Below, piece after piece: positions 31,775-34,255 of a stretch of 40,657 nucleotides of DNA. The notes beneath the pieces were generated by a model that was given only the letters and a program-made list of their open reading frames with translations, was not told where the DNA came from and ran no database searches. Position 1 is the stretch's first letter; every line of letters begins with the position of its first letter. The position numbers and the translations under genes were made by a program. The stretch comes from Bacillota bacterium. Lineage in GTDB: Bacteria; Bacillota; Bacilli; Alicyclobacillales; SLC66. The stretch is from contig JAPNUP010000117.1 in the NCBI GenBank assembly GCA_026627345.1, positions 1 through 40,657 on the forward strand, given 5' to 3'.

Positions 31775-32701
31775 TTGGATGTACATGGGCTTTCTAGTTG
31801 GTTTGCTCTCTCGCGTAGCGAACTGCATGCGCTGTTGATAGAACCTTCGTTTCAACATGCGCAGGTGGCTATTTTGATCTGGATACAGCAGTTTCATCAC
31901 GCATTCATGGACACGCTGGCGCTTGCTCTTTCGCACCTCGGCAATTATAGCAGTTACTTACTGCTGTCTGCAGTATTGCTTTGGCTTAGCGGGCCGCTGC
32001 TGTACAGTGAGATTGCGCTCGCAGCGACGTTTGCCATGGTCGCCGCAGATATCGGCAAACTGCTGTTGTCCACAGCTCGTCCCATTGGGACTCCTGGCAT
32101 CCGTTCGCAGTACGTGGAGTCTGCGACGGGGGCTTCATTTCCAAGCGGTCACGCGCTTGTAGCGATGGCCGTCTGGCCGCGATTCGCGCGCTATGTCCAG
32201 CCGCTGCGTCTATTGTTCTGGCTGTTGCCGTTCGCGATTGGTCTGAGCCGCCTTTATCTTGGTGTTCACTGGCCTGTCGATGTTGCGGCAGGATGGCTCA
32301 TAGGCTGGTGGATCAGTCGCATGCAGTTTGGCAGTCCACAGGTGCACACCGTCTGGCTGTGGCGTGGACTATACTGGATCAGTATGCTTGTTTGCCTGCT
32401 GACGCTGGCGCTTGTTCCGGACACGCGTTTTGCCGTGCGTTTCGGACTGACGCTTTTTGTCTGTCTCCCGTTTTTAAAGGGACTTTCGCCCGTGTCTTCG
32501 GTGAAGCAAGCGGCGCTGCGCTTGCTCATCGCCGGTCCGGGTTTTGCGCTACTCGCAACCGCTGGCGCCATGAGTATGGCCCTTCAACCTGTCTTGCCTT
32601 ATATGCTAGCTATCTATACAGCGCTTGCCGCGTATGTATTTACCCGCTTTACTGCATGGTCAGTCAAGTCCTGCACACATGCGAGAAGGAAGGTCATTTG
32701 A
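31775..32701 (+). CDS. PAP2-family phosphatase, membrane-bound
   Basis: Type 2 phosphatidic-acid phosphatase domain in a six- to eight-helix membrane protein. Members dephosphorylate lipid phosphates such as undecaprenyl pyrophosphate or phosphatidic acid. The three catalytic motifs are complete: K95 to R102-P103 (KLLLSTARP), PSGH (123-126) and SRLYLGVHWPVD (158-169). The part after residue 180 holds four more hydrophobic segments of unknown role. TTG 31775 has AAGGAGG 7 nt upstream. It shares 1 nt with the folate gene, so the two are probably co-transcribed even though they look unrelated. Confidence 0.9.
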   Translation: MDVHGLSSWFALSRSELHALLIEPSFQHAQVAILIWIQQFHHAFMDTLALALSHLGNYSSYLLLSAVLLWLSGPLLYSEIALAATFAMVAADIGKLLLSTARPIGTPGIRSQYVESATGASFPSGHALVAMAVWPRFARYVQPLRLLFWLLPFAIGLSRLYLGVHWPVDVAAGWLIGWWISRMQFGSPQVHTVWLWRGLYWISMLVCLLTLALVPDTRFAVRFGLTLFVCLPFLKGLSPVSSVKQAALRLLIAGPGFALLATAGAMSMALQPVLPYMLAIYTALAAYVFTRFTAWSVKSCTHARRKVI

Positions 32702-33312
32702 TGGAAGACAGTGCTCAGTCGCCTTTGCTGACTTCACAGAAAGCGCAACTGCGAGCCGATATGAAAGCGCTACGTGCGGTCGTTGGCGCACAGCAAAGGA
32801 TGCAGTGGGATCGGGAATTAGGCGTGCGACTCGAAGCACTCTCGGCCGTTAGCCGCGCTGCGTGTGTCTTCGCCTACTTGGCACAACCAGAGGAAGTCCA
32901 GACGGATGACTGGATTGCGCGCGCGCTCTTGCGTGGTACGATCGTGTGCGCGCCGGTGCTCGGGCCTGCCCGTGGCGAGATGCATCCGCATCAACTACTG
33001 TCCCTGTCCGCTGTACGCAAGGGGACTTACGGCTTGCGCCAGCCGCTCGGTCCTGCTGTCCCTGTTCAACAAATCGACGCGATCTTGGTGCCGGGCGTGG
33101 CATTCACAAAACGAGGGCAGCGACTCGGTATGGGCGGCGGCTACTACGATCGATTTCTCGCCGAGTGTCGGGCGGACGCAGTGCGCATCGCCCTGGCGTA
33201 TGACCTTCAAATCGTAGAGGATGTGCCTGCGACCTCGCTCGATCAAGGGGTTGATTGGATCGTCACGCCAACGCGTCTGCTAAAGTGTGCTCACCGTAGC
33301 GAACTGCGCTGA
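32701..33312 (+). CDS. 5-formyltetrahydrofolate cyclo-ligase
   Basis: Converts 5-formyl-THF to 5,10-methenyl-THF with ATP, returning a storage folate to one-carbon metabolism. The family block RLGMGGGYYDRFLA is perfect; an early KAQLRADMKALR helix and the DAILVPGVAFTKRG strand precede it. 203 aa. The ATG shares its A with the end of the PAP2 stop (TGATG), and a GAAGGAAGG ribosome site is upstream. The open frame extends far upstream through the PAP2 gene, but that is not coding in this frame. Confidence 0.93.
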   Translation: MEDSAQSPLLTSQKAQLRADMKALRAVVGAQQRMQWDRELGVRLEALSAVSRAACVFAYLAQPEEVQTDDWIARALLRGTIVCAPVLGPARGEMHPHQLLSLSAVRKGTYGLRQPLGPAVPVQQIDAILVPGVAFTKRGQRLGMGGGYYDRFLAECRADAVRIALAYDLQIVEDVPATSLDQGVDWIVTPTRLLKCAHRSELR

Positions 33313-33406
33313 TCAGGGCAATCGCAAACCTATGCAACAGGTGAGCTCTCATGGACCAGGTGGTAGGGGCAAATGGTACAATAAGATCGATCGTCAGCAC
33401 TCGCAA

Positions 33407-33441
33407 GGGGCGTCGGCCAAAATAAGCGGCTACTCTTATTT
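33407..33441 (+). repeat. Dispersed two-hairpin repeat, partial copy D
   Basis: Shares AATAAGCGGC with copies A, B and E and is preceded by a GGGGCGTCGGCC stretch. It has a different short hairpin, AAATAAG with CTTATTT (33419-33440), instead of the GCCG-TTATTC arm. It may be a decayed member. It lies 10 nt before the large palindrome. Confidence 0.4.
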
Positions 33442-33450
33442 AAAGTGACT

Positions 33451-33594
33451 GTTCAAAAAGTGTCGAGGTAAGACGTGCGTGGAAGAGGCGGCAGGCCGTT
33501 TTCAGCGCGCGGAGTGTACGTAGTCGGTACATGAGCACGTTGGAAACGGCCTGCCGCCTCTTCCGCGCTATGGAGTTCTCGGCACTTTTTGAAC
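33451..33594. repeat. Large near-perfect palindromic element (144 nt) upstream of mobA
   Basis: Outer arms 33451-33467 and 33578-33594 pair over 17 bp with one G.U. Inner arms 33481-33501 and 33544-33564 pair over a perfect 21 bp (GGAAGAGGCGGCAGGCCGTTT). A 5-bp TGTAC/GTACA stem sits at the tip. A 6-nt direct repeat TTAAAG flanks it (33440-33445 and 33601-33606). No coding frame is evident. The structure resembles long palindromic intergenic elements seen in Bacillales, possibly miniature mobile elements or a structured RNA. Confidence 0.85.
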
Positions 33595-33622
33595 AACCTC
33601 TTAAAGACGGGCAGGTGATGGC

Positions 33623-34255
33623 ATGCACGAAGCGCTAGAAACCCCTTTTCCCATCAGTGTTCTCATTCTCGCAGGTGGTTACAGTCGGCGAATGGGTGAA
33701 GACAAGGCGCTGTTGCCGTTCGGGGACCAGACAGCACTGGAACGACTACTGTCAGTGGCGTGTGCGATTTCCGATGACGTGTTAGTCATCCGTCGGCCTG
33801 ATCAACCTGTCCTTCCAGCCGTGTCTACGTGTCGCATCGTACACGATCTTCGACCGGGCCAGGGGCCGCTCGCTGGAATCGAGGCGGGTCTACACGCAGC
33901 AAGGCACCTTTGGTGTCTGGTCTTGCCCGTCGATGCGCCAGGCGTTACGCGCGAGTTTGTAAACGCGTTGCTGTCCGTTGTTCCAGTCGCGCAAGCAGCA
34001 GGGGAACTAGCGGTGATTACCACAGAAGGTGTTCGGACCCATCCGTTACACGCAGTCTATCACAAGACTGTCGAAGGCATTATCGGTAAATTGCTGATCA
34101 ACAATAGAAGGAAAGTGCTTGAATTGTTAGCTGAAATTCCTTGGCGAGCCTGTCCGCAAGGACAGTGGGCAAGGACGGATCAACAGGGTCTGGCGGTGCA
34201 TCCATGCAACACGCCAGAGGAGGCGCAAGGACTACGCGAACGCCTTCATGGATAG
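33623..34255 (+). CDS. mobA: Molybdenum cofactor guanylyltransferase MobA
   Basis: Attaches GMP to molybdopterin, forming the bis-MGD cofactor of DMSO-reductase-family enzymes. The nucleotide-binding signature LAGGYSRRMGEDK is at residues 16-28. LRPGQGPLAGIEAGL and PVDAPGVT (the metal-binding DxP) follow. The length of 210 aa is normal. The ATG has AGGTGATG upstream. It starts the mobA/moeA-like/mobB/tatA/tatC cluster. The 310-nt gap before it holds only repeat D and the large palindrome. Confidence 0.92.
   Translation: MHEALETPFPISVLILAGGYSRRMGEDKALLPFGDQTALERLLSVACAISDDVLVIRRPDQPVLPAVSTCRIVHDLRPGQGPLAGIEAGLHAARHLWCLVLPVDAPGVTREFVNALLSVVPVAQAAGELAVITTEGVRTHPLHAVYHKTVEGIIGKLLINNRRKVLELLAEIPWRACPQGQWARTDQQGLAVHPCNTPEEAQGLRERLHG

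Follow-up and report, generated by a model that had tools for sequence, protein, structure and literature searches.

The palindrome between fthC and mobA

The window, a stretch of 40,657 nt of DNA, carried a long palindrome between two genes of the + strand, the upstream gene encoding 5-formyltetrahydrofolate cyclo-ligase (fthC, 32701 to 33312) and the downstream gene being MobA-like (33623-34255). The palindrome was composed of inner arms of 34 nt (33477-33510/33535-33568, 88% complementary) and outer arms of 28 nt (33440-33467/33578-33605, 82% complementary). Single-strand folding of 33436-33610 gave -111 kcal/mol for the + strand (z -13.5) and -91 kcal/mol for the - strand (z -13.0), and 0 of 200 shuffles folded as well in either case. 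A palindrome that folds very stably on either strand, as described in an earlier sequence-only reading of this DNA, was thus confirmed.

Alignment with other copies set the limits of the element at 33445-33600 (156 bp) rather than 33451-33594. The direct repeat of that reading was present, but its true length was 5 bp (TTAAA) and not 6 nt (TTAAAG): the sixth base, G, was on the left the first base of the element and on the right the nucleotide that follows the duplication, a position with a preference for G. Among the listed ORFs of at least 60 aa, only a 62-aa antisense frame (33440-33628) overlapped the element, in agreement with the earlier remark that no coding frame was evident; the element was short and without coding capacity. 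The features are listed in Table 1.

The R1 covariance model, built from 18 sequences including the window copy itself, scored this copy at 144.6 bits over the full length on the + strand versus 49.9 bits on the other strand. An Rfam search of the window copy returned only mir-1197 (21.7 bits, cut-off 80) and no match to a known RNA family.

Table 1. Features of the element and its flanks in the window.
Feature	Position	Strand	Basis or remark
Left target-site duplication TTAAA	33440..33444		Copy comparison
Whole element, 156 bp	33445..33600	+	Family-defined orientation: 5' GTGAC-TGTTCAAAAAG, 3' CTTTTTGAACA-ACCTC
Left terminal inverted repeat GTGAC-TGTTCAAAAAGTGTCGAG	33445..33467	+	Corresponds in position to the IS end lying 5' of the transposase (GAGCG-/GAGCC-)
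5' internal-loop motif AGGTAAGA, conserved	33466..33473	+	AGGTAAG invariant in the 18-sequence alignment A1
GC-rich stem (family covariation) and apical part	33477..33568	+	Inverted repeats, alignment, covariation
Apical core GGAGTGTAC-loop-GGTACATGAG	33511..33535	+	Recurs across the class
3' internal-loop motif GAGTTCT opposite AGGTAAGA, conserved	33573..33579	+	Alignment A1: GAGTT and last T invariant, C nearly so
Right terminal inverted repeat GAGGT-TGTTCAAAAAGTGCCGAG (read on the - strand)	33578..33600	-	Corresponds to the IS end lying 3' of the transposase
Right target-site duplication TTAAA	33601..33605		Copy comparison

Copies, target duplications and the mobA locus in relatives

The sequence-only reading had proposed a miniature inverted-repeat element with target duplication, to be checked by a search for other copies in the same genome and in relatives. 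The window's own genome (G000), a draft in 186 contigs, contained six full copies (C2, which is the window copy, C115, C48, C128, C101, and C141) and one solo end, and DNA matches at E 0.001 were found in 8 of the 18 family genomes. Aligned over 136-159 bp, the five other G000 copies shared 93-97% identity with the window copy; two of the six were short, and four had about 21 extra nt with a small hairpin close to their 3' ends. Perfect 5-bp duplications (TTAAA, TATAA, TATCA, TAGAA, and TTATA) flanked five of the six, the C101 copy being without an intact duplication. The solo end of about 24 bp (G000:C16:11434-11462, locus L014) lay between two ORFs that we take to be argG-like and argH-like, and was apparently an insertion remnant.

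Terminal inverted repeats were common to the copies. Within the order, an end pattern matched 7 of 59 genomes, every one a member of the family; G000 counted as a miss here since the pattern demands a GGG that is absent from its own copies. End matches numbered 149 in G016 and 59 in G012. Out of 62 distinct paired-end copies, which were taken from the collected family loci and do not represent every copy in those genomes, 46 had a perfect 5-bp duplication; shuffled right flanks gave a mean of 5.45 and a maximum of 13 in 1000 shuffles. Duplications of other lengths (3, 4, and 6-9) were found in at most 3 of the 62 copies. The left pentamer began with T in 53 copies and ended with A in 53; C preceded it in 36, G followed the right pentamer in 44, and the whole 6-mer was shared at both sides in 26 (62 copies each). 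The target consensus was mostly C|TWWWA|G. A perfect 5-bp duplication was also present in 23 of 44 further copies obtained from distant matches, several of them from one genome.

The window copy had no match at E 0.1 in plasmid and phage collections. Two plasmid searches with the ends only gave one weak match in one case and six in the other (E 0.3 to 7); under three of these no gene was annotated. The terminal repeat pattern matched viral contigs twice, each time within a long open frame, and all of these matches were attributed to chance. A G147 element as a plasmid query found nothing. In the open-licence literature, the best-ranked matches, judged by title and start of abstract, gave no description of this hairpin or MITE family.

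MobA was found in 15 of the 18 family genomes, and G001, an 88% complete genome of the same genus, had no mobA match. None of the 14 mobA loci outside G000 had an R1 match at E 0.1. In seven of these 14 loci fthC and mobA were adjacent, and mobA began, by alignment, 12-106 bp after the fthC stop, versus 311 bp in G000; the seven genomes included G015 and G016, which are rich in copies elsewhere. The empty-site comparison that had been proposed was therefore answered in part: the insert was absent at all 14 loci, and the single TTAAA pentamer was unreadable in sequences so diverged. Presence in all relatives with neither other copies nor an empty site, the outcome named beforehand as speaking against mobility, was not what was found.

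A hairpin of such stability, set between two genes that run in the same direction, could also act as a transcription barrier or bidirectional terminator controlling mobA. A simple scan for terminator-like or promoter-like sites at the palindrome gave none, and the terminator count for 33250-33700 was zero, versus 0.4 in shuffles; the hairpin was absent from the 14 other mobA loci, and other copies adjoined other genes. This role is very unlikely, and the earlier suggestion of a double-stranded RNA source or transcription barrier for mobA found no support, the orientation of the element relative to genes also looking random (counts below).

An IS1182-like insertion sequence with the same kind of ends

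Plasmid NZ_CP104068 of Alicyclobacillus fastidiosus carried two IS copies of 1636 bp (L269 and L271), 99.9% identical and with both duplications intact (TATTA and TTATA), which suggests recent activity. Their ends, GAGCG- before the gene and GAGGT-TGTCCGAAAAGC after it, showed an asymmetry of the same kind as that of the MITE ends. The IS of G016:C92 was 1638 bp, with a 464-aa open frame, the duplication TATTA, and GAGCG-TGTCCGGAAAGC at both ends; its protein was 68% identical to that of the first A. fastidiosus copy. In G147, two inward-facing ends 1.6 kb apart enclosed a 1632-bp IS with ends GAGCC- and GAGTC-TGTTCAAAAAG, flanks TTTAA/TATAA (imperfect, 4/5), and a transposase split into two overlapping frames. 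In G016:C37, only one end was seen, C|TTATA|GAGGTTGTTCAAAAAG, which had the same 16 bases as the MITE right end and followed a transposase frame that lacks its beginning. GAGGT- was thus the IS end downstream of the transposase in both A. fastidiosus and G016:C37, and the complete asymmetric GAGCG/GAGGT pair occurred in A. fastidiosus only, with the inner end TGTCCGAAAAG versus TGTTCAAAAAG in the window copy.

Among the transposase proteins scanned, Pfam identified DDE_Tnp_1 in three of three and DUF772 in two of three. IS1182 (NF033551) was the best NCBIfam family for all four candidate transposases (62.5-110 bits), and the elements are called IS1182-like only, because these scores are far below the equivalog cut-off of 270 bits. 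None of the 27 DDE_Tnp_1 matches lay in G000, where a draft of 186 contigs could miss one; autonomous ISs with the same ends were found in relatives and on the named plasmid. R1 had no match at the IS loci L249, L269, and L271, and the core pattern matched L269 only loosely, twice; the hairpin was therefore considered not to be part of the IS. The parent IS, an IS1182-like element of about 1.63 kb that matches the MITE in the type of its ends and of its 5-bp target, is probably the mobiliser of the family.

Palindromic, repeated sequences are also known from REP/RAYT-type and Tn3-derived (TIME) elements, and Tn3 elements make 5-bp AT-rich duplications, as seen here. To our knowledge, REP elements make no such target duplication, which is at odds with the perfect duplications of the paired-end copies (46/62). 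The sole full Tn3 transposase match (G016:C55, 8 genomes searched) showed these ends only at a separate nearby MITE copy, and G000 had no Tn3 transposase match. A Tn3 parent was rejected since the ends were not shared with a Tn3-family transposon in the 8 genomes, and IS1182-like ISs carrying the same ends and duplications were at hand; an origin of either type is highly improbable.

The palindrome is very likely a non-autonomous transposable element, a type-II MITE probably moved by an IS1182-like transposase into an AT-rich pentamer. Multiple copies, shared ends, the 5-bp duplication, uninserted relatives, and the autonomous IS all agree with the miniature element first proposed. The transposase would recognise GTGAC/GAGCC-TGTTCAAAAAG at one end and GAGGT-TGTTCAAAAAG at the other, and insertion into a pentamer, typically C|TWWWA|G, followed by gap filling, would duplicate the 5 bp. 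Movement would occur in trans, and the transposase source in the window's lineage may be lost, unassembled, or external. The interior is not derived from the IS and represents a hairpin module whose changes preserve pairing. A palindrome family spread through Bacilli, the class indicated by the named Paenibacillus and Alicyclobacillus relatives, thereby gains a likely mechanism, namely an IS1182-like transposase and a 5-bp C|TWWWA|G target.

The structured interior, its spread and its place among known elements

Alignment A1 contained 18 elements of 152-157 bp with less than 96.5% mutual identity. Out of 48 predicted pairs, 25 had changed on both sides, versus 16.0 in shuffles, and covariation cells numbered 109 versus 38.9; controls with a slid structure reached at most 9 pairs and 23 cells. 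In a strictly filtered class scan that scored no more than 7 candidates in each genome and gave rough E-values, R1 matched 32 of 398 genomes at E 0.001, including G000 and six other family genomes. Strong full-length matches included G038 and G056 (order), G003 (family), and G147 and G216 (class); weaker ones included G206, G307, G080, G067, and forms of 147-178 bp. A query with one of the latter forms detected an element of 78% identity, flanked by TTATA duplications, on a plasmid of Paenibacillus urinalis, and it matched a P. cellulosilyticus record at 26 places. Rfam searches of 14 distant loci (E up to 1) detected rRNAs beside two copies and ylbH elsewhere in L229, and nothing on the elements.

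The apical motif GGAG[T/C]GTA...TAC[A/G]TGAG was present with at most 4 mismatches in 30 of 33 rows, which were picked by hand from R1 matches; R1 includes the apical region, so part of this conservation is by construction. In all 30 rows bearing the motif, left T went with right A and left C with right G. Some rows had other ends (L229, L236, and L238). Inspection of the apical loop by eye gave no fit to a K-turn. Judged from these alignments, the structured interior is real and widespread, and the family appears to be a type-II MITE with an unusually conserved structured interior.

Variant forms were also observed. Versions of about 279 bp with a second palindrome nested in the stem occurred at L123 and L129 (G012:C175 and C232), and five end pairs with this type of spacing were listed in G012. 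L113, L130, L131, L240-L242, L251, and L254 were minimal forms, about 46-64 bp where measured and consisting of nearly just the two ends; L240-L242 had identical flanks in three genomes and look like one inherited site. At L110 (G015:C1) and L226 (G003:C27), pairs of elements were inserted side by side. At L282 (G067:C6), a related hairpin (1001-1126, -) lay beside a T-box leader (755-986, +).

Six R1 matches lay between 16S and 23S rRNA, four in G023, one in G021, and one in G040, and all six were in the rRNA sense. Three of the G023 copies were identical; the fourth was slightly different and ended at the start of 23S. One G023 spacer (L273) appears to hold two tandem hairpins, the second ending at the 23S start. 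Five spacer hairpins (four from stretches with matches plus an additional one from the L273 spacer) gave local alignment scores of 47-89 with the G015 MITE, versus shuffled maxima of 27-38 and 13-23 for the opposite strand. With the G147 MITE the scores were 35-68, above the shuffled maximum in five of five; with the G000 copy they were 21-35, above it in only two of five. The G040 copy was still like the MITE ends (GAGCCTGTC...), which is suggestive of MITE insertion into rRNA spacers as one possible direction of transfer.

Compatible with the MITE explanation, the hairpin could be kept as a working RNA, that is, a processing, stability, or protein-binding site with the + strand functional and the ends serving for delivery. 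The covariation above its controls, the matched apical change (30/30 rows), and the spacer copies in rRNA sense (6/6, three genomes) point in this direction, as does the + strand fold, more stable in 62 of 62 mutually related copies. Against this, no orientation bias toward neighbouring genes was found: the left gene was in the element sense in 41 of 76 cases and the right gene in 38 of 76 (longest-ORF heuristic, 76 of 88 entries usable). A significant excess of G-U over A-C changes, 27 to 11 (p 0.014), was obtained only on the + strand structure; the counts were 21 to 10 (p 0.07) for pairs common to the structures of both strands, 31 to 26 for the two sets of pairs combined, and 25 to 25 for the - strand structure, and the argument for RNA-strand selection from this excess was dropped. 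Short forms without the core also had perfect duplications in 5 of 10 examined (L261, L279, L281, L288, and L289). Selection on the RNA is suggestive only, and a working RNA is a tentative reading, less probable than its absence.

Equally doubtful is the wider proposal that the interior, with its conserved apical internal loop GGAGYGTA / TACRTGAG, represents a structured RNA module that is functional in Bacilli and is found both in pre-rRNA 16S-23S spacers and as cargo of IS1182-like MITEs. If true, the module in the spacers may direct processing immediately 5' of 23S rRNA or tolerate it, and MITEs would either have picked up a hairpin from a spacer or have introduced theirs into rRNA operons. 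The results indicate that the structure of a MITE interior can persist through divergence as wide as a class and that such an interior can reappear within rRNA operons. It thus becomes testable whether the hairpins of MITEs play a passive part or convey a conserved RNA signal.

IS1272 is a member of the IS1182 family. The parent IS resembled this family in having it as the best-scoring one and in its DUF772 and DDE_Tnp_1 domains, and differed in scores far below the NF033551 cut-off. Unlike the parent IS, which makes a 5-bp duplication, IS1272 reportedly uses an inverted-repeat-replacing mechanism (PMC5678879). The bcr1 repeats of the Bacillus cereus group (PMC3446304, PMC6542083, and PMC2267715) are similar in description to the window element, both being gene-less, intergenic, MITE-like, and structured; bcr1 is of similar size, 147 or 167 bp (PMC2267715), and linked to the AT pentamer TTTAT (PMC6542083), and as described it is set apart by a host range reported as restricted. 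ERIC and Correia (PMC10969869) and REPIN (PMC3116915) are likewise dispersed non-autonomous repeats, in different hosts. The family was most like the bacterial type-II MITEs outlined in PMC10969869, which are less than 500 bp, carry terminal inverted repeats and target duplications, form hairpins, and resemble ISs only at the ends. It differed from that outline in an interior that keeps about the same length and the apical motif across the class, with related hairpins in rRNA spacers.
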